Assembly (NCBI GenBank): GCA_025526915.1
Contig: JAHLKH010000219.1
Location: 1 to 38,081 of the forward strand
Reading direction: 5' to 3'
DNA: 38,081 bases
From: Entophlyctis helioformis
Lineage: Eukaryota; Chytridiomycota; Chytridiomycetes; Chytridiales; Chytriomycetaceae
The position numbers and the translations under genes were made by a program. Under the pieces are notes generated by a model, which was not told where the DNA came from, did no database searches, and saw only the letters and a list, made by a program, of their open reading frames with translations. Below, in pieces: positions 9-35,965 of this stretch. How positions within the stretch are numbered: the first letter of the stretch is position 1; each line of letters begins with the position of its first letter.

Positions 9-1910
9 ATGGCAACTGCAGCCACGGCGATGGCAGCGATGGCAGGCGCACCTCGAGCAGGCCGTCGCAGACCCGGTCGGCGTCCCGCTCGGGCATGGCG
101 ACCAGCACGGCGGTTTGCGGGCCAGCCAGGCGCTCAGCACGACGCTGACGCACTCGGCGAGCTCGGGGAACTGCGCCAGCTGCAGCAGGTACTCGGCGAG
201 CATGGCGCCGGGCGGGTTTGTCAATGTGACGACAAGCGGATGCTGCGCGGAGTTGGACGACGTCGAGGGCGAGGGCGAGGGGCGAGGCGGCGGCGGCGCG
301 GCGGTGGTGGTGGTGGTGGTGGTGGTGCGGTCAAGAGCGAGGACGAGCCTGCGGTGCCCGCCAGCAGCAGCAGCGACGTCGACAGCGACGTCGACAGCGT
401 GCCGTCGGACAGCAGCGCCGACAGCATCGGCCGTGCTGCCACGACAGCGGCCAACAAGACGGCCAACGCCAAGACGGCCAAGACGGCCAATGCGAATGCC
501 ACGGCCGGCGACGGCAGCGTCGACACGCCCGCCAAGCCGCGCAGGGTCATGTCCGGCGCCGCAGCCCGGACGCGGCTGCGCGAGGCGATGCTGTTCGAGC
601 TGCGGCGAGTGTCTGGGCTCGTGGCCCACAACGCGCTCAACGACACCGTGCGCATCGTGGGCGAGACGCACTCGCAGCAGCGCTACCGTGCCCCGCCCAG
701 GTGGGCCTTTACGCTTCTGCTCTTGTGCCACTCCTCTGCTCGTCTGCTCTTGTCTGCTCTTGTCTGATACTGTTCTTGTGCCGCTCGGCGCGTCTGACGC
801 CTTGCAATGCATCGGGCAGGGCTGGCCGCTGGCCGCTGGATCCGACCAAGCTGCCGCGCCGCGTCCGCACACGTCCATCCGCCAGGCCGTGCCCGCCTCG
901 GTGCAGCCGCAGCCCGTCCGCACCACGCACCCGGCCAAGCCCGTGCCGTCGCTCGACGTGTCCGAGCACCTGCGCGACCACCTCGTGGCCGCCCTGCGCT
1001 GCGTGGTCGACTCGGAGACGCGGTTGCGGCCGCCGCAGGCCAACTGGAGCACCGTGCTCGCGGATCCGGCTGCCATGTCCCCGCGCGAGGTGGATGCCAT
1101 GATGCGCTTGGGTCACCTGGCGCAGCGGCGGACGAGGCGGTGCACAACGACTCGATCGATCCGTGGGTGTTTGAGAAGAAGTGGGTGGTGAATGGCTGTG
1201 CACGTGCTGTACATACCTGCGACGTGCAGGAGTGCGCTAACGCGGCCGTCTCGTGACTGTGGCAGTGAGACCGTGGCCGGATTGCGAACCAGACGACGGC
1301 CATGGCGATCAGGATCTTGCACACGGTCTCTACAACGCGGCACGCCATTGCGTAAGCTGGACGTCGTGCTCTCTTGTCGCGTCCTCCCTCGCCTCACTCT
1401 TTTTCTTTTGCACTCACGGTGCTGTGCGCTCACCTGCTGGCGACCGACAGAGGCGATCGCGAGTTCTCGCTGGCGGCCGACCCGGAACATCTCTTTCACG
1501 GCGGCGCATCTGGCCGGCGTCCCGGAAAAGTAAGAGTGACGTGGCCTGATGCTGCTGCTGCGTTGGATCACTGTGACGGTGGCGTGATGCGCTGTGACGG
1601 CGACTGGCTGGACTGGACTGAACTGCTGACTCGACTCGGTGACGGACAGTGTGATCATCAACGCGCGGCGGCGGCTGCGAGGGCTGACGCGCGTGCCGGA
1701 CAAGGTCGGACGGTTCTTTATTGCACGCAAGGAGGCGAGACAGGCTGCGCAGCGAGCCGCGCTGGATGCGTCGGGCATTGGTGCAGTGCTGGCTGCGCAG
1801 ATCGAGGCTCGGCTGGAAGCGCAGCAGCAGCGCGCCGTCAGGCTGCAGCGGAGGAGCCGCCTGTCCTGCAGCCGCGGACACAAACACGCGTTGACGGGTT
1901 TCTCCGCGTG
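9..1910 (+). CDS. Multi-exon gene of unknown function (partial or unresolved model)
   Basis: Several plus-strand stretches read like protein, but no full model could be fixed. Frame 0 up to about 692 ends in a helical segment (ARTRLREAMLFELRRVSG) after a Ser/Asp and Ala/Thr/Lys-rich low-complexity part, with a GT donor near 693. Frame 1 from about 845 to 1125 contains SLDVSEHLRDHLVAALR. Frame 0 then resumes with DEAVHNDSIDPWVFEKKW, with no intron-sized gap, so a 1-nt slip near 1125 is likely. Further candidate exons lie at about 1270-1337 (AMAIRILHTVSTTRHA) and 1433-1511 (GDREFSLAADPEHLFHGG), joined by a good GTAAGC...CAG intron, and at about 1650-1860 (KVGRFFIARKEARQAAQ). I do not recognise the family. 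The 5' end may lie before the window. The long minus-strand frame across this region looks like a shadow. Confidence 0.35.
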
Positions 1911-2103
1911 TCCCTGTGCTTCACACGCCATGCTGTTGATGGGCCGTGGCACTTGTCCCACTGTCGCGGCTCTTGGCACCTGTGCCATACATAAACGCTC
2001 GTTGCTGCTTTGCCTCGACGCTTGTACACCCGCGACAACCGCGACAACCACGGCAACCGCCACCACCAGATCCACTTTTACATCCACATCCACATCCAAC
2101 GCA

Positions 2104-4101
2104 ATGCGCCTTCTTGCCAAGACTGTCTTTTCGGCCGCTGCAGCAGCTGCCGCAGTCGCCCTGTTCAGCGGCCGTGCAGCCGCCCAGACGCCAGCCCTCG
2201 ACGGTTTCTTCCAGATCGTCGCGCAGGGGCTTGTAGCCTCGATCCACGCCGTGCTCCTCCCGCGCACCGGCAAAGTCATGATGCTCGAGCGCATCGACGG
2301 CGGCCAAGCCGGCACCGTGCATGCCATGGAGTTTGACACGACCACGTACGCGGTGCGGCCCGTCGCCTTTGCCTCGGACGTGTTCTGCTCGGCCGGCTTC
2401 GTGTCGCCCGACCCCCTTGCCCGCGTGTTCAATGTCGGCGGATGGATCGGCCCGGCGCTCGAGGCTGTGCGCGTGTTTGTGCCGTGCGGGACGCCTGGCC
2501 TGTTTGGCCAGTGCCAGTGGGCCGAGGACGCTACCCTTGCGGCGCTCAAGGTGCGATGACTGTCTGGTTGCTTTGGTGTTGCGCGCGGGGTGGTGATGCC
2601 AATGTAGAGGCAACTGACGTTTTGACGCGCGTGTGTGTGTGTGCGTGCGTGTGTGCGCTTATCGGTGTGTGTGCACAGGTGCCGAGATGGTATCCGACGG
2701 CGCTGCCGCTTGCCAATGGCCGCGTCGCCGTCATTGGCGGCACCACGGGCATCGTCGGCGTGTTCCCACCGGCGTTTAACCAGCCCAACATGGAGTTTGT
2801 GCCGCCGGCGGCCGGCGAGCAGGTGATCACGCTGCAGCTGCCTCGTCGACACGGACACGTACAACATGTACCCGCACGCGCACCTGCTGCCCAACAACCT
2901 GGTGTTTCTGATGGCCGGCGACCGCTCGCAGCTGCTCAACCCCAACACGTTTGCGCCGGTCGCCGAGCTGCCCGTCATTCCGGACGGCAAGCGCACGTAT
3001 CCGTTCACGGGCGGGTCGGTGCTGCTCACGCTGTCGCCGCGCAACAACTATCTGGCCGAGGTACTCGTGTGCGGTGGTGGCACGGGGACAGTGATTACCG
3101 CGCCGGCGCTGGCGTCGTGTGGCCGCATCTCGCCGCTCGATCCTGCGGCCCAGTGGCAGATGGAGGCGATGGTGCGTGCGTGGGATATGGCGTGGATGGG
3201 ACTGGCTGGCAGACTGACTGGCTGACTGACGCGTGTTGATGCGACAGCCGTATGCACGGGTGATGCCGGATCTGACGCTGCTGCCCGACGGCACGGTGCT
3301 CATCCTTAACGGCGCGCAGACGGGCTGGGCCGGGTTCGCCAACGCCGAGTACCCGGTGCAGACGGCGGTTCTGTACGACCCGTACCTGCCGGTCGGAGCG
3401 CGGATGCGGCCGCTGGCCACATCGACCATTGCGCGGCTGTACCACTCCGAGGCGCTGCTCATGGACGACGGCCGCGTGCTCGTGTTTGGGTCGACGCCCA
3501 ACGCCAACGCCAACGTGGACCCGGCCACGGTGCCGTACCCCAACGAGCTGCGCATCGAGGTGTACACGCCGCCGTATCTGGCCAACGGCGGGTACCGGCC
3601 AGTGCTCATGGGCGGCGTGCCGCTGGGCGGTATGGCGTACATGCAGGCGATGACGTTGAACGTGGCGTTGCCGTCTGGCGCACCGCAGCAGGCGCAGATT
3701 GTTCTCATGACAAGTGGGTGCACGGCTCTGCCTGCTGTTCCATGGCTGCTGGTCCATGGCATGCTGTGCTTGGCATGTTGTGCTTGGCAGCGAGACTAAC
3801 GCCAGGCAATGGACGTGCAGACGGCTTTGTGACGCACTCGACGCACATGGGGCAGCGGCGCGTCGAGCTGAGCGCGGTGTGGCAGCGCGTGGGCGGGGCA
3901 GGCGCGGCGGCGGCGGCGCGACAGACGCAGCAGACGCCGCTGTACAACGTGCAGGTGACGGGTCCGCCCAACGCGGCGATTGTGCCGCCGGGCTGGTACC
4001 AGCTGTTTGTGGTGGACGGGCGCATGCCGTCGGTTGCGCAGTGGGTGCAGGTTGGCGGCGATCCGTACGGCGTCGGGCGCTGGCTGCAGAACCTGGCGTG
4101 A
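2104..4101 (+). CDS. Glyoxal oxidase-like copper radical oxidase, secreted (four exons, one apparent frameshift)
   Basis: Exons are 2104-2550, 2679-3171, 3248-3713 and 3821-4101; introns are GT-AG and the last has a CTAAC branch site. The product is about 561 residues, the usual size for fungal glyoxal oxidases, which oxidise aldehydes to acids and release H2O2 outside the cell. It starts with a hydrophobic Ala-rich signal peptide (residues 1-28). Radical-copper residues of the galactose/glyoxal oxidase family are visible: Cys95 in DVFCSAGF, Tyr154 in RWYPT, Tyr378-His379 in [11 protein letters not shown], and a His in THSTHMGQR (about 474-477). The C-terminal [12 protein letters not shown]...VGGDP block is typical of the family's last domain. 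In exon 2 the reading frame changes near 2841 (CTGCCTCGTC): one extra C would explain the break, so this is either an assembly indel or a recent lesion. Everything else is intact. Confidence 0.87.
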
Positions 4102-4378
4102 CGTTGTACTCTCGCGGCTCGCGCGCTGTTCACGCGCTGTTTTGCAGATCTGCGGAATGAAGGCGATGGTTTTCGGAACCGAAAAGTTTTTCATTGTTTT
4201 CTTTCCATTTTCGGACAAGCGACGAGCGGGCGAGCGAACGAGCGAGCGCAGCAGCAACAACAGCGACGCTCACGCCTACGCTCACGCTCACCGCACGCCC
4301 CGCTCCGGCCGCCTGCACACGTCGGGCCACGAGGAGCGACCCGCCCAGCCCGCGCCTTTCGACTCTGCCCCGGCCGCC
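4102..4378 (+). promoter_or_regulatory. Intergenic 5' region of the WNK gene
   Basis: Short gap between the oxidase stop and the kinase start. It holds an AT-richer stretch (about 4160-4215) followed by GAGCGA-type repeats and GCTCAC repeats. The start ATG at 4379 sits in a near-perfect Kozak context (GCCGCCATGG). No TATA box is obvious. Confidence 0.4.
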
Positions 4379-4453
4379 ATGGGCCTGCGATCCGCGCTGA
4401 CGGCGTCGCCCGCAGCACCGGGAGCGGATCCCGCAGGCAAGACTGCCGCCGAA

Positions 4454-4486
<33 letters not shown>

Positions 4487-4700
4487 GACAACAACGACGA
4501 CGGCAACAACGACAGCCGTAACAAGGACGACAACAAGGACGACGGCGAGGGCGACGACGAGGACAGCCAGCGCACGCCGGTGGCCAAGCCGGCACTCGCA
4601 CGGCCAGTGCCAGTGCCCGTGGCCGTGGCCGAGACTGAGGCCGAGGCAGTGGCCGAGACTGAGAGCGCGGCGCCGGCAATGCGGCACGGCTTGAACTCTG
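4379..4700 (+). CDS. WNK kinase gene, 5' part of first coding exon (cut off by the insertion)
   Basis: This encodes the first 107 residues of the kinase described at 13762-18946. The frame begins at the Kozak-like ATG and runs through a poly-Ser tract (AGC repeats at 4457-4483), an Asn/Asp-rich tract, and Pro/Val and Ala/Glu-rich low complexity. It reaches Leu-Asn-Ser inside the 11-bp duplication (4690-4700) and then enters the insertion, where the plus-strand frame continues by chance to a stop at 5386. Reading from 4700 directly to 13762 keeps the frame and continues into the Gln-rich half of the same exon. As the allele stands, this exon is separated from the rest of the gene by 9 kb, so full-length kinase is unlikely unless the element is spliced out or excised. 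Confidence 0.75.
4690..4700. repeat. Target-site duplication, left copy (11 bp)
   Basis: CTTGAACTCTG here is repeated exactly at 13751-13761, immediately outside the other terminal inverted repeat. In both copies TTG-AAC-TCT is read in the same kinase frame (Leu-Asn-Ser), as expected if one original site was duplicated on insertion. Confidence 0.88.
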
Positions 4701-4723
4701 GGCCCGATATTCATACAATTACC
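4701..4723 (+). repeat. Left terminal inverted repeat
   Basis: The reverse complement of 13728-13750 matches this segment at 18 of 23 positions with no gaps. Shared blocks in order are GCCCG, TCATAC and ATTACC. It directly follows the left 11-bp duplication. Confidence 0.83.
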
Positions 4724-4954
4724 AAGCGTTTTGGAATTGGATTCGACCAGAGAGGCGACGAATGCAAACCCACATATCACGTGATTGAAGGTTCGAGTCA
4801 GCAACGAGCATGCGACGACGAGCGGGCGAGGCACATCCACATGCATGAGGGTCTTACCTTTATCGTTAGAAAAAGTGACCCGTTAGGTCGATCGGGAGGT
4901 CCCCCGATTCAAATAGTTGGTAGTGGTGGTGCAAGTCAGAGTGCCAAAGGCTTG
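4701..4954 (-). ncRNA. Candidate guide (omega/fRNA) region downstream of the Fanzor stop
   Basis: This is the 254-bp segment between the Fanzor stop codon and the left TIR, read on the minus strand. In TnpB and Fanzor loci the guide RNA scaffold is usually transcribed from the 3' end of the ORF and its downstream region, and in TnpB elements it runs to the element end. Visible structure is limited: a 6-bp stem ATCGGG/CCCGAT with a 6-nt loop (4891-4908) and the palindrome ATCACGTGAT (4776-4785). If transcription ran through the TIR, the RNA 3' end would copy kinase-exon sequence next to 4700. Placement rests on family analogy, not on a recognised RNA family. Confidence 0.28.
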
Positions 4955-7900
4955 TCATGCGAGACAACACATGGCTGGCAACCAGGCTTGGGCACGACTT
5001 GCACGCCGCTGGATGGCAGTATGCATTGCCTTGATGTCTGCAAGGTGCTCTGGTGTGGCTGGATCGTCACTGGCTGGCGTGTGCGTCAAGTAGAGCGGCC
5101 GGTGTCCAAAGAGCAGATGCCACAGTGCGACCATCCCGATGTTGGTGGCTCCAAGCACATCGCGGTGGTAGACGGTCTTGCATGGTATGCACTCGTAGCG
5201 TCGCAGGTTGGTGCGGTTCTTGTCTGGGATCCGCTGCTTGCACTGCGGGCACATCTGGCTGGTCAGGTTCTCGTTGCAGCGGTAGATCTGTGTGTGTGTG
5301 TGTGTGTGTGCAGGATTGTGTGTCAGTTGGTGCACAGATGGATGGATGGATGGATGGATGGACAGCATGGCATCAGACGCACATAGGCATATCCAGACGA
5401 CCGCAGATGCCTGATGAGAAACCTCTCAAACACAGCGTGCCTGCCACCTTGGCCTGTAAAGTCGATGCCAAATGCCCAGACAACTGGGATGTTGTCCTCT
5501 GCCGACTTTTTTGGATCGAAGGGCAGGCCTTGAGACGCAGCTGATGCGCGCTTGCCAGTGGTTGATCCTGCCAGCTTCATGATGCCCTCAAGAGCGTTTC
5601 CGCGAATAGACATGCTGTTGCTGCGCATGGTGAACCGCTTGGCCTTGACCTTCTGTGGAATGCCATGCCATGCCATGCCATCCAGTGCAATCAGCAGGCA
5701 ATCAAGAAGCATGGCGGTCATGTCAATGGACATCCAGAAGCAGAGAAAACATACCCGTGCATTCAGGAATGGCGAGCAGTACGCACGGCAGCGCAGATCC
5801 CAAAAGGCTCTCTCGCCAGGCTTGACGTTTGGATCGGCATGCTTTGCTGTCTTGAATGCAATGGCCGCCTGGATGTCAGCTGCCTTGGCATATCGATTGT
5901 TGAACCTGGCACAAGAGGCAGGCTCTGTGAGTTGATCTGGTCAAGAGTGCGCATGGCAGAGTCATTGCATACATACCAGTCCTGAAAGATGCGCTCAGCA
6001 TGTGCAATGCCAGAGGAGAGCACGTAGTTGGACTCGAGCTTATACGAAAAGTCTCTGAGATCGACCAAGATGCTGGACGCGCCATACATGTACCGCTGGC
6101 CCCAATCAATGCCGACAATCCGCACAAACCGGTAGCCCATGTTGGTGAACAGCTTGTTGGCTTTGAGGATGTTGCGCAGTCGCTGCGAGGCGTAAAAGTT
6201 GCGCTGGGCCTGTCATGCCATGGCATGAGTGAGGAATGTGCAACGCATGTGCACCAAAGTGCGAGGTTGGCATGCAAGTGGCTTACAGGATTGGTCGCTT
6301 TTGGCTTGGTGGCTGTGGATGGCATGTCAGTCAGTGCTGGTGCCAAGTGTGCGTCTTGATGGCACAGCAACTCACATGTGCCATCCATGTGATCATGCCC
6401 ATCATGCCCATCATCATCATCATCAGAATCATCATCATCAACAACCCACGGCTGCTGGCCTGAAGACACCAGATTGGAGCATGCAGAGCAACGGCAGTAG
6501 TCAGAATCAATGTGTGCACCAAAGCATCCAAGCATGCCACATACAGCAAGGTGACTCTGGACGGTCTGTGCGGCCATTGAGAGCGAGTTGAAAGATGCTG
6601 TATCCATCCGTCCTGACACTGCCTGTCAGGATTGCCTTGGTCCGTTTTGCTGGATGCACAGCATCAATCGCAGCCTTGATATGCTCTCACGCTCCTTGCC
6701 AACCAGACCCTGCTTGTCGGCCTCTTGCGTCGCCTTGGCTGTGGCCTTGGCAACCGCGTCCATCTCCACAAGAGTACCAACTCTGACCTTGATATGCTCC
6801 TCGCGCTCCTTGCCAACCAGACCCTGCTCATCAGCCTCTTGCGTCGCCTTGGCTGTGGCCTTGGCAACCGCGTCCATCTCATCTTTGGCTTGTGCAGGTG
6901 TCTGGAAGCGACCTTTCTCAGGGCGGAGGCCGGGAAGCAGGACGTCGAGAACACAGAGCTCTTGACTTGCGCTGAATGCCGGCTCAATATCCTGGTTGAA
7001 TGACGTGAGGCCCAAGGTGGCTTTTTGGTAGTCTTGGACAAAAGTGCAGTGTCAGCATCAAATCATACAAGCATGGCATAAACAAGTACGACCTACTGAG
7101 TGCATCCAGAAGCTCCAGTCTCAATGTCTGCAAAGCATTACTCTGCTTGCCATTCTTGCGCTCATCCGTGGTCCCCATTACCGCCCAAAAGAGGGTGGCC
7201 TCAGTAATGAGGATGAACGGGTCGCGGCTCGCCGCCTCAGGGCACAACTTGATTGTTGTGCCAACAGCAAGCTTGCGCAGCTCGTAAAAGATCCTGATCT
7301 CTGAGAGTGACGCATTGCTCAAGATGGCACAAGCACATGCAATGCTTGCGGGATTGTATCAAGACCGCCGTTGTCTGTGGCTGGCAGCGTGCTGGGTGTC
7401 GCGGCCGCGGTGGTGGCCTTGTCCTTCCTGCGCCGTTGCCTCTTGGGTTTGGTGCTGTTGGTGGCCGATGAAGAGGTGGACCGGTCGTGCTTGAGACCCG
7501 AGGCAGGAGGGGCAGCGTCTTGAGCAGCGTCTAGTGAGGCGTCCTCAGTGGCCGGTGGTGTGGTTGATGCTGGCCCTTTGCGCCTTTGTTTCTTGCGCGT
7601 CGGTGGGCTTGGTGTGGCGACCTCGGCAGCAGTGCGTTTGGCATCCTTGGCGGTGGCATGCTTGGCATCCTCAGCGGCCTTCTTAATGATCCCATCCACC
7701 TGTCAACATCCTTGGCAGACGCACCCTGCACCAGGCTGTGAGCTGCATCAACCAACAGCTTGGACTGGTTGGTCATAAAATGGGTGGCCAGCATGCGGCC
7801 GACGTCGCGTGCAAGGTTGTTGTAGATGTCGTGCCTTGCTTTTGCACAAAGGCTGCTATCAAGCCTGTAGGGCAGGACAGCCTCCATAGTGTCCGTATGC

Positions 7901-10900
7901 ACAGCATCTGCCGTCGGTGCACTCTTCTGCATCAAGGCAGACAGCTTTGCATTCGCCTGCTCCACAGTTGACTTGAACTTATTGGCCTTGGTTGTCGCTG
8001 TCTGCTGCACGCGTGCTGTCCGTGAGATTGACTTCCGTGTGCCGCTTTCCACGTCGCTGCTTGCCGTGTGGTTTTCTGTGCTGCAGATGCCTGCTGTGTC
8101 GCGTCCACCTGCCCTCCTTCCGTCTCCATGTCCGATGTATGATCAGCTGCATCACGGTGACGATCCAGCAGTGGACAGGGTACTTGATCGCATGCGGCTG
8201 GACCATCTTATCATCCGCCATGATGTATCCAATGTGATATAGCAGCATGTCCAAAGCACCCTCGCCACCAGACGTGCTGCTGGTGAGCGCCGTGAGCAGC
8301 TCATTTGCAGTTGGGACTGCTGGCGGCTGGGCGGCTGGCAATGGTGCACCGGTGCTGCTGGCTGCTGTTGCTGCTGTTGCTGCCACAGTCTGCGATGCAT
8401 TTGCAAAGGTGCAGATCTCAAGCACCGTGCCATGCTCGAGAGGCACCAAACTGCCATAGCGAGGGATCTTCGTGTCGCTGCTATGTGGTCCTGTGCCATA
8501 CATCAGCCATGCATTGATGCGCTTTTGGAGGATGCACCTGCCCGTTGTCTGCATCGTGCCCTTGCCCTCGCCGAGGTCGTCTGGGTTGATGTAGTAGTAT
8601 GTTTTCACACTGCCACTAGTGACTTGCATCACGCAGTAGTCAAGTGGCAGTGGCGCGTCTGGGCTGAGCTTGACAAGAACCTCGACTATCGCGCCGATCA
8701 ACGCGAGGACAGCACACAAGAGGCCGGCTGTGTAATCGTACACCGTCAGGAGGGCGTCCTTTCTGACCGAAATGGCCGTCTGCTTGGCCAGTGGTGTCTT
8801 GGTATGGGTCCCAAAATACTTTGTATACTCTGGCTTGTTTGACAGCATCTTCTGCTCATTTCACGAGTGCACCAGTCAGCCTCACAACACCAAGCATCCA
8901 GAGCAACATGGCAACCAAACCCCATACCGCCAGATCCACAATCATAACACGGCTGTTATGCTGTGCCTCATCCCATCCTCATCCTCATCCTCATCCTTGC
9001 CCTTGCCCTTGCCCTTGCCTTGCTCTTGCTCTTGCTCTTGCTCTTGCCTTGCTCTTGCTGTTGCTCTTGTCCTCATCCTTGTACTTTGGTGCTTTGCGAT
9101 GATGCTGCACGTTTTTCCGACTGTCTGGTGTTTTGACTTTGAGGACCCCATTGACTGTCTGGACTGGCCCTGATGTCACGCAGCAATTGCCCGCAACATC
9201 CAGATGTGTCGCCCGTCTATCATGATATTCGTGTCTACCAGCAGAATCCATGTCAGCAAGCACAATCAGGGCTCGCAGCATGCCATCTGCCACTTACGTG
9301 CTTGTCGTTGTTGGAGATGGGGCCTTCCGGTGGCGTCGCCCTGACTTCTTCTTGTTTTTCTTGATGGTATTCTCGGTCGTAGCCTTCTCAGCTCGCTCGG
9401 CATTCTCCTTTGCATGTGCAGCCTCTGTCTCCTCAGAGAATTGGAATGGCGCCTGCCGTGGTTGGATGCAGCATCAGGCATCCCTTCCTTGTGCACGCAA
9501 CACAGTCACAATCACCAACGGTGCCCTGTAACCTACCGTCGTATTAGTGTCATCAAGTACACCAATGAGAAGTTTCTTGCGGTGTGCTTGTTCAGGGCGA
9601 TCGTTGTCAGATGACTTGGGCAGCGGTGGAGGAGGACCAGCCTGGGAGTAGAATGATCAGCAATCGTGCCAAATCAGTACAGGCACACACCATCAGTGGA
9701 AGATGAGACGCACGGCGGCTTGCTCAATGACTTTCTGCAGCAGGGCAATGGCCGTTTGACGCTGATTGACGAGTGTGATTGAATTGCCCTTGCTGATACG
9801 TCGATTCTTGAGGCCATTCAAGTCATTCAGTAGGTTTGTGGCCTCATCATGGATAACTGCAAACGTGTCTGCCGGCGCCACTCTTGTGCTGATCCGTCCG
9901 CGGTACTCGGTCTTCTTCTTGCCTGTATCTGCAATAGCACATTCAACAAAAACGGCACTGTGAGTGGATTGCATCAACCATTTCAATGCAAGCAGAATAT
10001 ACTTGGAGTGGCTGTATGCCGGAAGGGGGCATTTTGTGGATGCACGATCTCATCCAGCTGCGTCTTCATTCTTGGAGCAACAGTCTGTCCAGGAGCAATG
10101 GATCGAGTCAGTCACATTCAAGATCAACAACCGTGTGTGGTGCAAGAGCAACGGCATGCATCCAAGCCATGCAGCAACTTACAAAAGCATGCCAAATCAT
10201 CTGATCCGCCTTACTGAGCACCATGTAATCATCTGGCTCGATGGACTGCTCGCGCACAATCTGCAGCAGCTGTGCACTAGCCGCCCTGCAGATGGCTGCG
10301 AGGATGTCACGGCTAGTGACTCCATCATACTTGCTCGCAAGGAGATCAACTGTTTGCTCTATGATGGCGTCCAATGCCACGTGGCAGCCATTGACCTCCT
10401 TGAATGCCACATCCAGCCGCCTGCTGGCAACAATGCCATTGGCAAGCTGTTTGACGCGATCGCTCGTCAAGTGGACAGGTGGGACGCCAGTCTTGGCTTG
10501 CTGCTGCAGCTGCTGCGCAGTATGGATCAAACAGCAACCAGGCGATGAGCACCTGCACAATAACAAGATCGCAGCATCAGAAACAGGAAAGCCATGTCAG
10601 TTTTTCAGAAACACCACAGATGGCATGCATGCATACTTGGCTCCAGCCGAGGCTGTCACGTTGACATACATGTGGTTGGCATTGCCTTGTTGAGGCCCAG
10701 ATCTGTGCAAGGCATGCAATCGTGTCAATGCCAATATGTCCATAAAATCCTTCAAGAATAGACTTGCCTGCGACAATCGGGGCTGCATCGTGCCAACTGG
10801 CACTTTGGGCTCGATTCGGTCGACAAAGACCGAGAATGCGTTCTTGAACATTGGTATGAGGCTCTTGTCATGACTCTTGGCCAAGTCCTTGATGTACGCA

Positions 10901-12129
10901 TCCCTGAGGTCATACATGAACACCTTGGCCTCGTCAGGAGTCTCGAGTTTTCTATAGAGCTCGGCCTCCTTGCCATCCAACTTGGCCGCCTTGCGATCGA
11001 ACCACGCGTTAATGAACTTGGCAGCGGCCGCGATCCCTGAAGGCAATACAAGCAGAATCTGCATGAAGACAACAAATGGCATGTGAGTCATGACAGACAA
11101 CAAAACAGGCGCAGCAACCCACCATGGCGATTGCGGCCAAAAAAGTCTGTATGAGAAAACGCTGCAACACCCTGACATGCACCGCGAAAATCCCGCACGC
11201 CCAATGCAGACGCGGTTGAGGCGATACCGCCATGGTTGTATGAGCGAGGCTGGTTAAACCGCCCATGCTGCAAGTGGGTCACAACGACACCACATTGACC
11301 AGCACAATGAGCAACCAGATCAGAGTCATTGGAGACAACAACGACTGGCTTGTCACTGTCACAAAATGGAGACTGTGAGCCATCAGTCACGGCAGAATGA
11401 TCCAAGGCAATGTTACCTTGGCTCGCGAACACGGCGGGCGATGCATACATCAGCCTCATAATCACACCAGCATACCGTGCATCCCTTCTTTTTGCCAACA
11501 AGCTCGTTGAGGGCCTCAACAATGTGCTGTTTGTCGCTCTGCGTCAATGTGAAAAATCGGCCGAGAGCATGGGTCTCCTTTCTGAGTGGCCAACAGCAGA
11601 AGATGGTTAGTAAGGCAGCCACACAGTAGAGAGTAGCAAACCTACTTGGTCATCGACCCAATCTGCTTGTATTCTTGACGGCGGAACGCATACCGCAGGA
11701 CCTTGACCGCCGCATGCAGCATCTTGAGTGCGCGGTGTCGGTGCTCGATCTTGATTCCCGCGTCTCCGCGGCGACCGTCGACGTGGAATTTGATGGTGTG
11801 GCCGTCGCCGACCGACGCCATGAACAGCTCGATGGCCGGCTTGACAATGGCCTTCCAGGCATCCTTGGAGTCGGGCAAGCTGAACGATGCTGAGGCGATG
11901 AGCTGCGAGTAGAATACACTTAGCACGTCAATGTGTAACATGCTGCTGACAAAGTCGTCTGTTGTTGCTGTTGCTGTTGCTGTTGTTGCTGGTCGCTGTT
12001 GCTGCGGCGCTGTTGCTGCAGTGTGCTGTGGACCACGTGCTGCACGACCTGGCTGAGTGCTGTGCCAGCAAGGTAGAGCCAGACGGCACAGCCTAGCTTG
12101 AGCATTCTCAAGTAGCCGCGGACCGTCAT
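4955..12129 (-). CDS. XPG/FEN1-like nuclease fused to (or adjacent to) a Fanzor RuvC nuclease, multi-exon
   Basis: Exons supported on the minus strand: 12129-11646, 11581-11417, 11355-11123, 11036-10768, 10702-10670, 10512-10183, 10084-9714, 9641-9537, 9452-9298, 9234-8951, then a long block from 8851 to 7097, and 7032-6545, 6459-6376, 6209-5977, 5905-5755, 5652-5383, 5287-4955. Splice phases agree at most junctions across the XPG-to-middle boundary and all through the C-terminal 329 codons, favouring one transcription unit of about 1,900 residues. Frame disagreements of 1 nt remain in the poly-Gln tract (near 11960), at a 5-G run (10025-10029), in the hexamer repeat (near 9030), near 8050-8130, 7700, 7370 and 6690, and at the 6376/6209 junction. 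These are either true decay or assembly indels. A two-gene reading, with Fanzor starting near 8050, remains possible. Known Fanzors are RNA-guided DNA nucleases; activity here is inference. Confidence 0.68.
5290..5362. repeat. (TG)n and (GGAT)n microsatellites inside the last Fanzor intron
   Basis: A run of about ten TG repeats (CA on the coding strand) lies directly before the splice acceptor at 5288 and may act as its pyrimidine-alternating tract. A GGAT tetranucleotide array follows at about 5338-5362. Both are intronic (intron 5382-5288). Confidence 0.7.
6674..6880 (-). repeat. Intragenic tandem duplication (about 94 nt) in the Fanzor gene
   Basis: Segments 6674-6766 and 6787-6880 are near-identical. 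Each encodes an EMDAVAKATAKATQEAD...GLVGKERE module. The downstream (6674) copy is one base shorter around 6686-6692. Reading with the longer copy's length restores a frame that continues into the TDG block, so the shorter copy carries a 1-nt deletion. Confidence 0.85.
7097..10702 (-). other. Unrecognised middle region with charged low complexity and nuclear-localisation-like clusters
   Basis: After the XPG-like part come a 33-nt exon (10702-10670), a helical segment (HLTSDRVKQLANGIVASRR...), and a segment beginning TVAPRMKTQLDEIVHPQN. A Lys/Arg/Glu-rich exon (AERAEKATTENTIKKNKKK) follows, then a hexanucleotide-encoded Lys/Arg/Gln/Gly/Asp repeat (8970-9085). A globular block runs from 8851 to about 8180 (TYYYINPDDLGEGKG, LEHGTVLEICTFANA). 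From about 8050 come PYRLDSSLCAKARHDIYNNL, two basic clusters (TRKKQRRKG, KPKRQRRRKDK) that look like nuclear localisation signals, and ASIACACAILSNASLSEIRI. No family recognised. Frame breaks near 10027, 9030, 8090, 7700 and 7370 interrupt it. Confidence 0.5.
8970..9085 (-). repeat. Hexanucleotide coding repeats (GAGCAA/GGCAAG/GATGAG types)
   Basis: On the minus strand this reads alternating basic and acidic dipeptides: Ala-Arg, then Gln-Glu or Gln-Gly, Gly-Lys, and Asp-Glu. The upstream frame ends in a stop at 8991 while a second frame stays open to 8942. A length change in the repeat therefore probably shifted the frame. Confidence 0.6.
10768..12129 (-). other. XPG/FEN1-like (PIN-fold) nuclease domain, N-terminal part of the composite gene
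   Basis: The start MTVRGYLRMLK resembles the MGVxGL opening of XPG-family nucleases. In order follow LHIDVLSVFYSQL (first Asp), IKFHVDG...K..EHRHRAL (XPG-N signature), CDYEADVCIARR (XPG-I EAD motif), VVVVSNDSDLVAH (DSD motif) and AAFSHTDF...RNRHGIAAAAKF (SGTDY plus helix-hairpin-helix-like region). Together these give the acidic metal-binding set of a structure-specific flap nuclease. The last motif appears only when the 11122-11037 intron is removed with phase 1, which supports the model. Between the first motif and LHIDVL lies a poly-Gln tract where the frame shifts by 1 nt, or an unrecognised intron occurs. Whether the domain cuts flaps or serves transposition is unknown. Confidence 0.72.
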
Positions 12130-12157
12130 GTTGCGTGGTGCTGGTGCGTGGGATGGG

Positions 12158-12159
<2 letters not shown>

Positions 12160-12203
<44 letters not shown>
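12160..12203. repeat. (TG)n microsatellite upstream of the XPG-Fanzor start
   Basis: About 21 TG units lie 31-74 bp upstream of the minus-strand ATG at 12129, so they are in its 5' leader or core promoter as (CA)n. Confidence 0.8.
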
Positions 12204-12205
<2 letters not shown>

Positions 12206-12482
12206 CTGTTTGTTTGCGGGCAAACACGGCGCGTTCCAAAGTGGCGCGCTTTGATCAGATCTGATGGGCGGAGTTGAACTTTCATTGCATGAAAACAGAG
12301 AGCGAGTCGATAGAGAGCGAGCATCTGGCACTCGCAGCCCACTGCCCGACAACCATCAAGGGAGCAGCGAGCACAGCCAACAGCCAGGCGTTCAAGATGT
12401 GGTCTGTGTTGCTGGCACAGTCATTGATGTGATGCCACTCAGTGCGCAGCTTGACATGCACTGTGCAGCATCACTCTGCGTG

Positions 12483-13609
12483 TCATGAGCTGCATTGCAG
12501 CGAGCCCTCTCCGAGTGTCGTCTTCTCAGTCAATGTCCCACTGCATCCAACAATCGTCCTGATATGCATCTGCATTGTGACCCAGTGCGATGCAGTTGGT
12601 GTTGCCTGACTGGCCAGCTGGTCCATGGACAGGTTGGCCGTTGGCGCACTGCCTGCATCGCCCCTCTGCTCTGGATTGTCCTTGTCAACAAACACAGTGC
12701 ATGCAAGACTGGGATCGTCAGGATTGTCGCCATCATCATCATCGTTGTTGTGGTTGTTGAATGAATCGAGAGTGCTTGGTCTGTCTGTCTGGCCACTCCA
12801 GTTGCTGCTCAGTGGATCGCATCCAAGATGCCATCGCACCAAGTGCAATGTGGCCAGACACGCCTGCCAGCACTCGCGTCCTCCTCACCAATCTCGTCTG
12901 GATCAGTGTCGTGAGTGTGCTGCTCATCGAGTGTGCTGCCACTGCGAGTTTGGCATCCAAGTCGGCATGCCAATCCAGCTATCCAGCAAGCAGTTCCTGC
13001 AGCCAACTCCCAAGGATCGATCCATTGAGCACGTCTCAGTGGCTGCTCATCTGCGCTGCTGCATCCCATGTCGCAGTCGGAAAGCACCAGGCAGCTTGGT
13101 CCTGCGATGCCAATGCTCTCGCTGTCCTCTTGAACAACAGCCAGATCGCCCTGTTCACGGCCGTCTTGCCAACGTCCCTTGCTGTTTGGACCCATCAGAC
13201 ATGCACACAGTCAGTGCCAAGCCACACAGACACGGCCGTCAGACTGCTGTGCCTCGTCGTCGTCGATGGGCAATGGAGCATGCCTGGACAGACAGCGAGT
13301 CAACGCACCTGCTCGCCTGTCTGCAGCCTGCCTTCTGTCCGCCCGCCTTGTTGGGCACGCCTCTCAGACGGCCACGACCACGCTGCTCTGCTGGATGGCC
13401 TGCTGGACTGCCTGCTGCATGCCACCTTGAGCAGTGGCCTCGCCATCTCCCCTGAAGGACTCATCCAGCAAGCGAGTGCTGTCCCATATCCGTGCTGTCG
13501 CCTGCGTTGCCGTGTCGTTGTCGTTTGGCTCGTTGTTGCTTGTGTGCAGTTGGGCGGCAAGTGCAGCAGCGTCTGGATCTGGCATGGCGCGTTGTTGCTG
13601 TGCTCGCAT
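12483..13609 (-). pseudogene. Possible decayed coding region of unknown function, upstream of the XPG-Fanzor gene
   Basis: The minus strand opens with an ATG at 13609 and 81 codons rich in Gln and Ala (ARIWDSTRLLDESFRGDGEA). Further down, one frame reads RDVGKTAVNRAIWLLFKRT, FPTATWDAAAQMSSH, DVLNGSILGSWLQELLAG and TLTTLIQTRLVRRTRVLAG, with TGA and TAG codons between blocks. Another frame has an Asn/Asp-rich stretch (NNHNNDDDDGDNPDDPS) near 12740. The hydrophobic periodicity looks like protein, but no start-to-stop model holds, so it is either degenerate or has introns I could not place. A 930-bp plus-strand open frame across the same region looks like an antisense shadow. No transposase motif was recognised. 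Confidence 0.3.
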
Positions 13610-13632
13610 CGCGCAGTGTCTGCACCGTGCAA

Positions 13633-13730
13633 CGGCTCTCTAGATCGACTAATCACAGCGATTCCACCAAGATCGGCCAATCAGGAATAGTCCACCAAGA
13701 TTGACCAATCAGGAATATTCCACCAGGGGT
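13633..13730. repeat. 28-bp subterminal tandem repeats at the right end of the element
   Basis: Units start at 13661, 13689 and 13717 (partial), with a degenerate earlier unit from 13633. Each unit contains TCCACCAAGAT, then CCAATCAGGAAT. The array ends against the right TIR. Subterminal repeats of this kind are typical of transposase-binding sites. Only a weak related motif (TTTGGAATTGG, 4734-4744) is seen near the left end. Confidence 0.8.
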
Positions 13731-13750
13731 AATGGTATGAGAACCGGGCA
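13728..13750 (-). repeat. Right terminal inverted repeat
   Basis: Inverse partner of 4701-4723 (18/23 positions). It is followed at once by the right 11-bp duplication. Confidence 0.83.
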
Positions 13751-13761
13751 CTTGAACTCTG
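13751..13761. repeat. Target-site duplication, right copy (11 bp)
   Basis: Identical to 4690-4700. The kinase frame continues from here as Leu-Asn-Ser-Ala-Ser-Gln. Confidence 0.88.
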
Positions 13762-19218: not shown

Positions 19219-19300
19219 GCGTGTGTGGCCGAGTGGTCCAAGGCGCCAGACTCAAGTTCTGGTATCGAAAGATGCATGGGTTCGAACCCCATCGCACGCA
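19219..19300 (+). tRNA. tRNA-Leu (anticodon CAA), intronless
   Basis: An 82-nt cloverleaf. The 7-bp acceptor stem GCGTGTG/CGCACGC has one G-U pair, followed by a TGGCCGAGTGG D-arm. The anticodon stem is CCAGA/TCTGG with loop CTCAAGT (anticodon CAA). A long class II variable arm and the T arm ATGGGTTCGAACCCCAT follow, with discriminator A at 19300. A T4 tract at 19301-19304 serves as the pol III terminator. In many fungi this isoacceptor has an intron after the anticodon; none is present here. Confidence 0.95.
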
Positions 19301-19496
19301 TTTTGCTGTTCATGACCAGCACAGACGCTCGGGACCATGCTGGTCTACTACGGGATGATCTCTCTTTTGTTTTTTTGCAAGGGTCGGATGTACACGGCGC
19401 GTTCTCTTGTGTGGAGACGTGGTGTGTTCCAGCAGTCTTTTTTGCAGTCGGAAGTGTGGCCGTGTCTGAGGGATCCACGCACAGACATGGCAATCA

Positions 19497-22078
19497 CGTC
19501 TTCATTCCAATCGCGAGTCTTGGCTATTGGTACATCACTTGCTTGGTGCTTGCAGGTGCTTGATGGTCGACTCGAGTCTCTCGATGTTGGCTTTTCTGTA
19601 AAGTCCTTGGCTTGCTTGGGCAAGCAGCGACTGTGCCTGGTCCAGTGTGAGACTGCCAACGAGGATATCGATGATGTCGGAAGTCTTGGCGTTGTCGAGT
19701 GCTGAGAGTTCAACCGCGTATCCGCAATCTAGCAAGTACCGCACCATCTAGGGTTTGCCCGCTGTGGCTGCAAACTCGACGGCATCCCATGGCGCGCGGA
19801 CGCCTTTCGAATGAATGTACTTGACAACGTCCACGTGTCCCCGGCTGATGGCGGCATCCAGGGCGGCAGACGTGAGCTCCTCCTGGCGGATCTCGTGGAG
19901 CCACTTGACGACATGCAGGTGGCCGTATTCAGCCGCCTTGTCCATCGCAGCAGCCATGCATCCTTCTGTCCTGTTCTCGTGGAGCCAGACGATGACATGA
20001 AGCTGGCCGTTTTCAGCCGCTCAGTCCATGGCGCGAGTCGTGCATCCAGTCACACCAGCATCAAACAAGTACTGGATAACGTCGAGATGTCCGTATAGGG
20101 CTGCTTGATCAACGACATCAGACCAGTACGTGCTTGTCGGATCGTGCCTGACCATCCAGCCTTTGAGTGTGCGGTACTTGTCGTTGAGATGCTTGAGCAG
20201 ATCGAGGCATCCATAGCGGATCGACATGCGAGCGAGGGAAACCGGATAGCGAAAGTCGAGCAGATCGAACCAGCCGTGCCGCATGGGAATGAGAATCAAG
20301 CGGCTGCTGTCACAAGGAGTGGGATCGAACGGGTCGTCGTAGTTGTTGTTGTCTGCGTCGTCTATCGCATACGAAGGCTCGGTGTACTGAGGAAAGCGCT
20401 TGCAGAGACGGTCGTACATGGAGCGAGAGTGTGCAAGGAGCAGGCCGTTGTCGGCCATCAGCCAAGCATCAGGCAGCAGCGCCAGGTCGCCCTGCCAGTC
20501 CATCTTGAACGCATCGGTCCACAGCTGCAGCCTGGTCGCTTCGTCGAGTGTGTCCGTGTCCCCGAGCAGTCCGCACAGGAAGAGAGTGAGAGGGCCGGCG
20601 TGCTAGAGGATCATGGCATGGATCTCGGCAGGCTTGCCGTCCCAGTGGCTTCTGCCGAACGCCAGGTCGCCGGTGGCTGGCGGCACCACATAGCGAGGCA
20701 ACCCTGGCTGCGCAGTCGCTGCTGCTGCTGCTGTCCTGGCTGCCCTGGCTCGACGGCTTGGCTGCCGCTCGCTCCAACGACCTGCTCGACCACAGCCGGC
20801 TGTTCGCTGTCTGCCGTCTGTAGCTCCGTCTGCATCGTCACGGCCGCTTGCTCGCTTTGTGGCTGTGAGGACAAGATCCACTCGACGCGACCGCGTCCAT
20901 CTGCAGCACTCTTGGCTTTGCTGGTCTGCTCGCTCGCTTGCCGCGCCATCAACGCCAACCTGCTCGGCCCAGCGACCCGCAGCCGCAGCCTCGCTCAGCA
21001 GTGCCCCGCCCACAGCCGCATCCGCTCGCCTCGGCTGGTGCAGCGACTGGCGCACTGCTGGCACGGCGACCTCTGCCGCACGCACAGCGCGGCCAGTCGG
21101 CACACGTCCGAGTCCAAGGCCACCCTGCCGCCGCCCCTCCACCTGCCCCTGCCAGCCTGCTGCCACTCGCAGTCTCCGTGGCACAACGCAGCATGCACAC
21201 TGCACAGTCCCAGTCCCAGCTGCATCTGCGTCCACAGCAAGACTCGGCTGTCCACGAGTGCGCCGTGCGCAGCATGCCATCTGGCCCTGTCGAGTCGCGA
21301 GCCATGCAGATCCACCTGGCCCAAGTGCCGATTGTTGAGCGCACCTTGGCTGGCCGCACTCGAGTCGCCAGCAGCCACGCCAGCGGCCATCCTGCCCGTG
21401 CGCCAATGGCTGCACCTGCAGCATCGGATCTCGAGCCCATCACCGAAACACAGCAGGTTCATGGCCACCACTGTTCAACTGCCCTTGTCCAGCCTGAACA
21501 GCAGCAGCAACCGTCAGCTGCACAGCATGCTATCGCTCGCACTTTCGGCGCATATCCAGAAGAACATACCGACCTGCATGCTGCTCCATCAGCCGAGCAA
21601 CAGCATCAGCAGCCGCCTTGGATCCACTCGCCGCCCTCGCCTCTGCAGCGTCGCAATGCACCATATCAATACACGCCACCAGCCGCAGCACGATACTGTC
21701 CATCGGACCACACGTCCATCGGACCCAAGCTCAAGTCGTTACCGTCGCGTCTGTGTCCAGCCAGCGTCAGGATCGAGCAGACAGCCGTTGACGCTCTGAA
21801 AGCGCATTGCATGAGGATGGGTCTGCTGCGTGACAGCGGCGCTATTCCACTGGATCAGCAAGCAGCCAATGCCAGCAGCGCCGTCCCAGCTGGATTTCTT
21901 CTTGGCCGCCTGCTTTTTGACAAGCATGCCGTGGATCCATCTGATGGCTCCAAAGGCGGCGGCAGCACTGGCGACGCTCCAGTCCGCGATCGTCGAGATG
22001 GCCGACTTGCAACGCTTGTCATTGACCGTTTCGACGCTGGACGGCAGATGCTCACGCGGCAATCTGAGAAGCCGATTG
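19497..22078. repeat. Segmental duplication, copy A (partner at 31496-34276)
   Basis: The block contains the minus-strand F-box/ankyrin pseudogene and the divergent plus-strand Gln-rich gene and aligns throughout with copy B. Relative to copy B it lacks about 227 bp at 20940 (junction at GCTCGC microhomology) and has about 66 extra bases near 20790-20855. Similarity on the left starts within CTTCATTCCAA and on the right ends near 22078. Confidence 0.85.
19535..20892 (-). pseudogene. F-box-like/ankyrin-like repeat gene, copy A (three in-frame stops)
   Basis: One minus-strand frame runs LPRYVVPPATGDLAFG, then LWTDAFKMDWQGDLALLPD, HSRSMYDRLCKRFPQYTE, HGWFDLLDFRYPVSLARM, then ankyrin-type units (YGHLDVIQYLFDAGVTGCTT, YGHLHVVKWLHE, RGHVDVVKYIHSKG) and a C-terminal SDIIDILVGSLTLDQAQ. 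It keeps a single frame but contains stops at 20605-20603 (TAG where copy B has Lys), 20023-20021 (TGA where copy B has Trp) and 19750-19748. An N-terminal Gln-rich stretch (20958 downwards) is in a different frame. The family resembles fungal and amoebal substrate-receptor proteins combining an F-box-like helix with ankyrin-like repeats. This copy is a recent pseudogene. Confidence 0.85.
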
Positions 22079-31081: not shown

Positions 31082-31505
31082 CATGCAGCATTCATTGACA
31101 TCAAGAAGGCATTCGACACGGTGCCGATCGGCGCGCTGCTGTGGAAGCTGCGCAAGATGGGCATCCCGCTATGCACGTATGAGTTCCTCAAGGCGCTCTA
31201 CACGTCATCCACTGCATGTGCACGATCAGGCAATGTGCTCTCTGAGCCGTTCAACGTCAGGCGAGGCTGTCCGCTGTCTGGCCTCTTGTTCAACCTGTTC
31301 CTCAACGACATACTCGATGGCATCCCCGAGATCAGCATCCTGCTGTGGCTGATGGTCACAACATCCGTGGACTGATGTTCGCAGACGATGTGGTCATTCT
31401 CGCAGAGTCGCATGCAGCATTGGCAGCCGCTGTGGAAGTCATGGCGGCATGGGCGGACAAGTGGCAGATGGCGTTTGGTGTCGACAAGTGCGGCTATCAC
31501 ATCTT
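31082..31505 (+). pseudogene. Fragment of a LINE (non-LTR) reverse transcriptase
   Basis: One frame reads AAFIDIKKAFDTVPIGALLW, LSEPFNVRRGCPLSGLLFNL and FLNDILDGIPEI. After a 1-nt frame change near 31340 it continues GLMFADDVVILAESHAAL and WADKWQMAFGVDKCG. These are the finger/palm motifs and the catalytic FADD box of non-LTR reverse transcriptases. The 5' and 3' parts of the element are absent. The fragment ends where copy B of the segmental duplication begins. Confidence 0.88.
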
Positions 31506-35832: not shown

Positions 35833-35965
35833 GTATGCACGCGAGGAAGGGCGGGCAGACGACTGCAAGAACGGGGGCAACCAGAGCGGGGGACGCGGCC
35901 GGGCGATGTCTGTCCGGTCACGTGGGTCACGTGGATCACGTGACCGCGACCGAGCATCCGTTACA
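35782..35965 (-). repeat. LTR (184 bp) of the same family, opposite orientation
   Basis: On the minus strand it starts TGTAACGGATG just after a purine run (GGGGGGAG, 35966-35973) that looks like a polypurine tract. It carries three CACGTG motifs (35919-35942) and ATACTCACTGCCCCT, and ends CTACA at 35782. This is the arrangement of the 3' LTR of a minus-strand element that interrupted the plus-strand Gag. Confidence 0.65.

Follow-up and report, generated by a model that had tools for sequence, protein, structure and literature searches.

An element of the chytrid Entophlyctis helioformis carries one recognizable gene that, at the gene level, near-certainly encodes a single protein chain of roughly 1,880 residues, in which an XPG/FEN-like module is joined to a Fanzor, a eukaryotic enzyme related to those of CRISPR systems. 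The element lies in a 38,081-nucleotide stretch, hereafter the window (contig JAHLKH010000219.1, positions 1 to 38,081; assembly GCA_025526915.1; Table 1). The reading of one polypeptide uniting a guided cutter with an XPG-like nuclease, first put forward in an initial annotation of the window, is strongly supported because a sister copy has an intact ORF, the halves meet at a phase-0 splice join, the two parts are linked genome-wide, and each half shows dN/dS values below 1; membership of the first module in the XPG family is suggested by motifs and sub-threshold profile matches.

Table 1. Coordinates of the element, its gene and its domains in the window
Feature	Position	Strand	Basis or remark
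Whole transposon, one 9.05-kb copy	4701..13750	-	inter-copy homology stops here; paired termini separated by 9,049 bp
Left terminal inverted repeat GCCCGGTTCTCATACCATTACC	13728..13749	-	82 genome places at <=2 mismatches; reversed pattern 0
Right terminal inverted repeat GGTAATTGTATGAATATCGGGCC	4701..4723	-	121 genome places at <=2 mismatches; reversed pattern 0
Flanking direct repeat CAGAGTTCAAG (target-site duplication), left copy	13751..13761	-
Flanking direct repeat CAGAGTTCAAG, right copy	4690..4700	-
Single gene, 19 exons, frame-broken in window copy	4955..12129	-	1877 stop-free codons in sister copy C138 (L015)
Exons 1-4	12129-11646, 11581-11417, 11355-11123, 11036-10768	-
Exons 5-9	10702-10637, 10552-10183, 10084-10003, 9928-9714, 9641-9537	-
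Exons 10-13	9452-9298, 9234-8928, 8851-7097, 7032-6545	-
Exons 14-19	6459-6376, 6312-6287, 6209-5977, 5905-5755, 5652-5383, 5287-4955	-
Intron with GC-AG ends	10703..10767	-	required by sister copies' reading frame
Putative XPG/FEN-like nuclease module, exons 1-4, C138 residues 1-377	10768..12129	-	seven invariant acids in 7 copies; sub-threshold XPG_I_2
Middle region, exons 5-13, residues 378-1511	6545..10702	-	no Pfam family over cut-off
Fanzor part, exons 14-19	4955..6459	-	TNB domain over cut-off; Bao-Jurka motif in 9/9 copies
RuvC-I exon	6209-5977	-
E1753 exon	5652-5383	-
Zinc ribbon/RuvC-III exon	5287-4955	-
Conserved 3' non-coding stretch, candidate guide-RNA scaffold	4701..4924	-	overlaps right end

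Gene Model and Coding Continuity

Spliced at the window-copy sites, the natural sister copy C138 yields 1877 codons with no stop, ordered as an XPG/FEN-like nuclease, ~1,100 residues without family assignment, and a Fanzor. The initial annotation had described frame-compatible exons with matching splice phases at most junctions; in C138 all 18 join in frame (17 GT-AG and one GC-AG, the latter accepted because the sister copies' reading frame needs it), and the ATG at 12129 and the stop at 4957-4955 hold, whereas the window copy spliced by the same model contains 34 stops. Against five sister copies the window copy shows nine single-base losses, eight relative to every sister covering the place and the ninth relative to three of four; judging from these comparisons, it is decayed or badly sequenced. 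Frame breaks are present in most copies of the family.

Ten copies with 47-95% identity align collinearly to the C138 protein and share introns at residues 523, 551, 657, 1677 and 1767 in place and phase. It is highly improbable that two neighboring genes of one transposon, one XPG-like and one a separate Fanzor, merely look joined. The halves do differ in history (C158 and C18 share 28-49% identity as far as residue 630 but 74-98% past 720), and the NCBI models P0001 and P0002 cover only XPG parts; however, P0001, whose five XPG-part introns agree with our model, comes from an interrupted copy and terminates at a stop there, neither C138 nor C37 has a stop between the halves, the coding frame continues through the 8-9 kb stretch in sister copies, and the intron at residue 800 is kept in nine of the ten copies. 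The phase-0 exon 11/12 join between the halves, common to copies only ~35% identical there, together with the intact C138 copy, led us to reject the two-gene reading.

Genome-wide, we found at least 148 XPG and at least 150 Fanzor matches. A Fanzor lies downstream, on the same strand and within 15 kb, of 95 of the 148 XPG matches and upstream of one, an order bias that, with so many matches in one genome, argues against chance pairing and contradicts the expectation, named in the initial annotation as grounds for refuting the fusion, that the two parts are always separate, unlinked genes. Unpaired are 53/148 XPG matches and 93/186 Fanzor places.

The Two Nuclease Parts

The motifs HID, HVDG, YEAD, DSD and TDF lie in the window exons where they had first been placed. 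Seven acids in FEN1 order, which we take to be the FEN1 catalytic acids, are invariant in all seven copies of A1 and A2; the last drops out of one further alignment owing to the badly bridged C158 copy. These acids and the EADxCIA and DSDL blocks are shared with XPG/FEN1 nucleases, the nearest Pfam family being XPG_I_2 (Asteroid-like); unlike those nucleases, the module is known from sequence motifs, is fused to a Fanzor and has profile scores below cut-off. The XPG_I_2 profile matches five of seven members (best E 2.1e-4), all matches with a score shown lying below the curated Pfam cut-off, and genome-wide XPG_I and XPG_I_2 searches missed the transposon exons. For P0001, XPG_I_2 and 5_3_exonuc_N rank above NYN_YacP among sub-threshold matches. 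A value of 0.14% was returned by hhalign of the module against FEN1, and a PDB sequence search gave nothing useful. The structure prediction that had been proposed as a check produced two poor models of the XPG part (pLDDT 39.4 and 41.2), neither usable; Foldseek with one of them was meaningless. An M[T/G]xxG start is in frame in 6 of 11 copies, in another frame in four and not seen in one, with Gly second in only two.

In protein-database searches, which start from 5-residue words in common and score candidates only if their length falls within set bounds, the XPG and Fanzor regions of the 1877-residue query each gave no match, and an XPG profile gave two, both from E. helioformis; because of these search constraints, distant relatives may be missed.

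The Fanzor assignment has profile scores above threshold. The last window exon gives a Pfam Cas12f1-like_TNB match above the curated cut-off (E=1.7e-9), as does the C138 zinc-ribbon domain (E=1.2e-10, 41.8 bits versus a cut-off of 26.3). The motif D-X(125,275)-[TS][TS]xx-C4-X-RD, printed as the Fanzor/TnpB definition in PMC3627910, occurs in all nine spliced copies. The RuvC acidic triad, D1584, E1753 and D1810, is invariant, E1753 being assigned by spacing relative to SpuFz1. A PDB sequence search with this part returned one weak RNA-guided nuclease (E 0.56).

Extent and Family of the Transposon

The unit had been given as 4955-12129; these limits hold for the gene, which sits inside a larger, 9-kb transposon (Table 1). 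Its imperfect inverted ends of ~22 bp and its target-site duplication are those of a Class II TIR transposon. A flank repeat of at least 7 bp, mostly 8 bp, borders 10 of 16 elements and is lacking in six, compared with 3 of 240 mismatched flank pairs. Of 38 inverted-repeat pairs more than 7 kb apart, 32 hold both XPG and Fanzor and none holds neither. The transposon is a member of a large, diverse family in the 29.6-Mb genome, where TIR-bounded short derivatives of 1.0-2.2 kb are also present. The idea that 13-16 kb elements are versions with an extra gene was rejected for C2, the one examined, which contains a nested Gypsy-type retrotransposon. tRNA genes as targets, considered on account of GTTCAA in 3/16 flanks, were dropped, aragorn having found none in three empty sites.

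A Pfam scan of the C138 protein (three pieces, minus ~90 low-complexity residues) recognized no transposase family, and the middle region could hide one. Genome searches gave only four fragment matches for KDZ and none for MULE; the hAT search was silent everywhere, controls included, and is therefore no evidence.

Selection and Homogenization of the 3' End

All but one of the 44 module comparisons give a dN/dS below 1; among the close copies C138, C6 and C102 it is 0.19-0.28 for the XPG part and 0.53-0.82 for the Fanzor. Toward the 3' end the synonymous difference falls to 0.09-0.27 in all ten pairs, and introns there are 0.88-0.97 identical. These values indicate that the 3' Fanzor end, introns included, is homogenized between old lineages, of which ordinary recombination could be an alternative source. 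The adjoining non-coding stretch, on the same strand as the gene, has a mean column identity of 81% (19 copies). One hairpin in it shows a compensatory change in two copies, with an overall covariation term that is not favorable, and no fold of the candidate RNA was better than shuffles.

Discussion

Among the closest known systems is SPu-1 (SpuFz1) of Spizellomyces punctatus, a Fanzor1 chytrid TIR element whose single gene ends in RuvC and a C4 zinc ribbon, as described in PMC3627910 and PMC10432273; the triad here is spaced like its D383/E541/D606. SPu-1 measures ~2.1 kb, encodes 633 residues in a single unbroken ORF and has 33-bp ends flanked by putative duplications of TA, whereas the E. 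helioformis element is ~9 kb long, is split by 18 introns, encodes 1877 residues with an XPG-like module at the N terminus and is flanked by 8-bp duplications. ESvi-1B of Ectocarpus (Fanzor1 in IS4-type elements) is likewise a Fanzor element with short TIRs and 8-bp duplications, but such elements, according to PMC3627910, have a separate IS4-type transposase, a family that the Pfam scan did not recognize in our protein. In open-licence PMC full texts we found no earlier description of an XPG-Fanzor pairing, and the fusion is apparently new to that literature. Accessory nucleases or helicases also occur in Academ transposons, some lineages of which reportedly have an XPG-type nuclease. A RecQ helicase in Academ transposons is mentioned in PMC3627910.

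We tentatively favor, at somewhat less than even confidence, guided re-copying by the Fanzor coupled to flap trimming by the tethered XPG-like half. By analogy with other Fanzor/TnpB elements, the 3' stretch would act as guide RNA, with a guide derived from the right-hand flank; the Fanzor half would open an R-loop at a matching empty site (excised or allelic) and cut there; the XPG-like half would trim the displaced strand or flaps of the R-loop and repair intermediate; and repair would restore the element, using another copy as template. Over many such rounds, old lineages would come to share a uniform 3' Fanzor/RNA end, so that the pattern seen is the one expected. For the initial insertion and its 8-bp duplication a transposase is probably still required, encoded either at an unlinked place or, unrecognized, within the middle region. 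That the XPG-like half processes R-loops, nicks or repair intermediates during transposition, as the initial annotation proposed, is plausible by analogy; the active-site acids of both nucleases are conserved among copies.

It is rather unlikely that a DDE transposase encoded elsewhere moves the element while the fused protein aids excision or repair, with no guided re-copying. The transposase-like inverted ends and 8-bp duplications, the Pfam result for C138 and the short derivatives fit such a passenger; the absence of long TIR pairs lacking both parts, the sparse KDZ and absent MULE matches, and the selection on both halves speak against it. We consider it improbable that the element is transposase-free, the XPG-Fanzor polypeptide and 3' RNA forming the whole engine, with the Fanzor picking and opening the site, the XPG-like half and middle region cutting flaps for insertion with 8-bp duplication, and guided repair converting 3' ends. 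NYN_YacP is a family with RNA-cutting relatives. Its place among the P0001 matches, and the shared strand of gene and candidate RNA, would suit an XPG-like half that cuts RNA, trimming the element's own transcript into guide RNA; with XPG_I_2 and 5_3_exonuc_N outranking it and the acids in FEN1 order, this is quite doubtful.

What role a Fanzor plays for the transposon that carries it remains under debate. A Fanzor naturally fused to a flap- or bubble-type nuclease, and maintained by selection across a large, diverse family, suggests a fate for the R-loop or break once guided cutting has occurred; it also provides a two-nuclease protein ready for testing. In the homogenized 3' end the genome keeps a trace through which re-copying driven by the Fanzor could be tested from the sequence of one fungus, and the transposase-free engine, if true, would amount to a new kind of eukaryotic transposition, guided by RNA.

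Gene Structure of the XPG–Fanzor Transposon

The initial annotation placed XPG/FEN1-type motifs upstream of a Fanzor RuvC and zinc ribbon on the minus strand, with mostly matching splice phases, and proposed that the two may form one polypeptide. Relative to five sister copies, the window copy has nine single-base losses (eight relative to every sister spanning that place), some of them intronic, and frame breaks are also present in the C6, C102, C316, C307, C140, and C110 contig copies. Under the window exon model, the copy on C138 (locus L015), which supplies our residue numbers, reads through 1877 codons uninterrupted by a stop; all 18 exon junctions join in frame, 17 of the introns being GT-AG and one GC-AG. 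In the C37 copy (L009), exon 2 is interrupted and the other 1744 codons are open; all 771 codons of the C5 copy (L013), which is cut, are open.

We aligned the C138 protein to ten fetched copies with a purpose-written genewise-like program, which yields 19–27 introns per copy, including spurious calls where the sequence is of low complexity or rearranged. All ten are collinear with it at 47–95% identity over the part available (from residue 210 in C272, 26 in C98, 10 in C10, and 1 in the others, to 1863 or beyond), with 0–5 frame breaks per copy and no stops in eight (one each in C98 and C10). C158 and C272 contain neither breaks nor stops, although C158 is bridged over an insertion by implausible tiny introns. 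Introns at 523, 551, 657, 1677, and 1767 share place and phase in 10/10 copies, those at 155 and 210 in 9/9, and those at 288, 800, 1541, 1549, and 1627 in 9/10; those at 378, 400, 709, and 1512 are less constant. The exon 11/12 join is an identical phase-0 site in copies that are only ~35% identical at that place. A protein database search with the XPG part yielded two Entophlyctis helioformis proteins, P0001 and P0002. The NCBI gene model P0001, which holds the XPG part only and matches C239 at 99.8%, has the same five introns there as our model plus one small intron near its start, and terminates at a stop present in its own copy. The open C138 frame and the collinear copies thus establish, at the level of the gene, a fusion of the XPG-like and Fanzor parts, with one predicted protein as proposed.

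Family Size and Transposon Ends

The transposon is a repeat family of this genome (29.57 Mb, 482 contigs searched, C219 being the window). The Fanzor end gave at least 150 matches (150/150 scored, 530 candidates), as did the Pfam zinc-ribbon family Cas12f1-like_TNB (150/150 scored, 205 candidates); the first XPG exon gave at least 148 (148/150 scored, 152 candidates) at 26–100% identity, two places being split and counted twice. Merging the Fanzor lists left at least 186 places for pairing. Among the matches listed, a same-strand Fanzor lies within 15 kb downstream of 95 of the 148 XPG matches (at 5–7.5 kb in 72 of these) and upstream of one, while opposite-strand Fanzors lie downstream of one and upstream of five. 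Also among the matches listed, 53/148 XPG matches are unpaired, several near a contig end, and 93/186 Fanzor places have no XPG match within 15 kb upstream; part of this is due to contig ends and to truncation, as in the copy at locus L012.

Homology between copies ends at 4701 and about 13749, and the two termini are imperfect inverted repeats of each other. With up to two mismatches, the right end occurs at 121 genome places and the left at 82, vs. 0 for reversed control patterns. A same-strand right end lies within 25 kb downstream of 41/82 left ends vs. upstream of 3 (100 of the 121 right ends used). The 38 end pairs spanning more than 7 kb hold both XPG and Fanzor in 32 cases, XPG only in 3, Fanzor only in 3, and neither in 0. 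Flank repeats of at least 7 bp, mostly 8 bp at the ends, accompany 10/16 elements vs. 3/240 mismatched flank pairs; six elements have none of that length, and the window copy has 11 bp. The duplicated targets of three of the 16 insertions (the window copy, one on C5, and one on C66) share GTTCAA, and a search for tRNA genes at these three empty sites found none.

Features in the window and in other contigs of the same genome (G000)
Location	Feature	Observation
Window 3230-4101 (+)	Open frames adjoining transposon	By eye, presumably C-terminal part of a galactose/glyoxal-oxidase-type protein
Window 4701-13750 (-)	Transposon copy	
Window 4701-4924	3' non-coding stretch	Guide-RNA candidate
Window 4955-12129 (-)	Fused gene	19 exons, broken in frame
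Window 6686-6880	Exon 13	114-bp tandem duplication; single in several sister copies
Window 19219-19300	tRNA gene	Rfam RF00005, 58.5 bits
Window 19489-21801, 31492-34004	Long duplicated stretch	81-95% identity in pieces; 84-nt repeats, ankyrin-like by eye only
Window 35814-36394	Gypsy-type stretch	581 bp at 99% to the L051 element
L051 (C2:178000-183000) 1085-5001	Gypsy-type retrotransposon lying inside one XPG exon	Frames for integrase and reverse transcriptase; by eye, a chromodomain-like tail
C5:119707-128531	Insertion with GTTCAA	
C35:164492-165479	Short TIR-bounded derivative, 1.0 kb	Zinc-ribbon match kept, XPG match absent
C436:7861-8911	Same, 1.05 kb	Same
C199:20581-22748	Same, 2.2 kb	Same
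L048 (C38, match 89474-89623)	Host gene, presumably Asteroid-like	Begins MGIGGL, carries EADAHIA and RDSDF; holds one of the genome's two XPG_I_2 matches
C334:6404-7253, C271:9823-10062, C396:222-449	KDZ transposase fragments	

Fanzor Part, Middle Region, and XPG-Like Module

The Fanzor motif published by Bao and Jurka (PMC3627910) occurs in 9/9 spliced copies, and D1584, E1753, and D1810 are invariant, with spacing much like that of D383/E541/D606 of SpuFz1 (PMC10432273). The zinc-ribbon match of the C138 protein exceeds the Pfam cut-off; matches to NCBIfam TnpB models fall under theirs. The middle (residues 378–1511) matches no Pfam family above cut-off and may contain a transposase, the target- and guide-binding parts of Fanzor, or both.

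In the N-terminal module (residues 1–377), the series D, D, E, D, D, D, D is invariant across seven copies, in FEN1 order. An M[T/G]xxG start (MTVRG, MTFVG, MGIIG, or MGVVG), resembling the FEN1 start MGIQG, precedes the module in frame in 6/11 copies; it lies in another frame in 4/11 and was not seen in 1/11. Pfam finds XPG_I_2 in 5/7 members (best E 2.1e-4), all scores shown being under cut-off; unrelated families each turn up in one or two members. At the XPG_I_2 place, P0001 has sub-cut-off matches to 5_3_exonuc_N and NYN_YacP, which we take to be PIN/FEN-like families. Scanning the genome with XPG_I and XPG_I_2 gave 4 and 2 matches, respectively, all of them away from the listed first-XPG-exon places. 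Sequence searches of the PDB with the XPG part returned no XPG relative, hhalign against FEN1 gave 0.14% (its short alignment sets DSD on DMD, with the later D...GI block in register), and AlphaFold pLDDT values were 39 and 41 for inputs comprising two database proteins and window exons only. Because of these sub-cut-off, negative, or low values, we designate the module XPG/FEN-like by motif and conservation, not by profile or fold.

Selection and Exchange of the 3' End

Among the close copies C138, C6, and C102, dN/dS is 0.19–0.28 for XPG and 0.53–0.82 for Fanzor. Values are below 1 in 43 of the 44 usable (nine pairs, five modules) and 1.00 in one pair for the stretch before RuvC; the interruption in C37 makes its XPG value (0.59) unreliable. 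Synonymous difference in ten of ten pairs is 0.38–0.86 over residues 1–360 vs. 0.09–0.27 over 1681–1877; it stays at 0.36–0.79 across 361–1440 in nine pairs, C35–C18 being low already from 721. Introns 1549, 1627, and 1677 are 0.88–0.97 identical to C138, upstream introns 0.53–0.92, with 1541 (0.62–0.84) and 1767 (0.66–0.95) as exceptions to the high 3' identity. Since introns and synonymous sites are alike, coding constraint does not explain this similarity. Identity between C158 and C18 jumps from 28–49% up to residue 630 to 74–98% past 720, a swap of halves. The 3' end has been exchanged or converted among old lineages that retained their XPG half.

The 3' non-coding stretch has a mean column identity of 81% in 19 copies (of 21 available), and position and conservation alone make it a guide-RNA candidate. 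In the hairpin ATCGGGG-N-ACCTCCCGAT, one double change in two copies preserves pairing, but it concerns a single pair among the 41 predicted, and overall the covariation term comes out slightly unfavorable. The stretch folds no better than shuffles (z -0.80), and an Rfam search found no family there.

Relation to Known Elements and Proposed Mechanism

Earlier work has described one-gene Fanzor elements with TIRs as well as a Fanzor-bearing element whose duplications are 8 bp long (PMC3627910). We found no earlier description of an XPG–Fanzor fusion in our searches of open-licence PMC papers. Some Academ transposons reportedly carry an XPG nuclease and would be a precedent. XPG/FEN1 nucleases act on flaps or bubbles. 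Alongside the observed marks of mobility, conserved active-site residues, selection, and 3' homogenization, we suggest by analogy with published Fanzor/TnpB work that the protein would make guided cuts at matching empty sites; the XPG-like half, as in XPG/FEN1 biology, would act on flaps or bubbles, and repair would proceed from another copy. This leaves the first insertion, with its 8-bp duplication, unexplained. Genome-wide, MULE transposase has no match and KDZ transposase has four fragment matches, three with stops. The first insertion may be the work of an unlinked transposase acting in trans, of a transposase hidden in the middle region, or of the fused protein itself.
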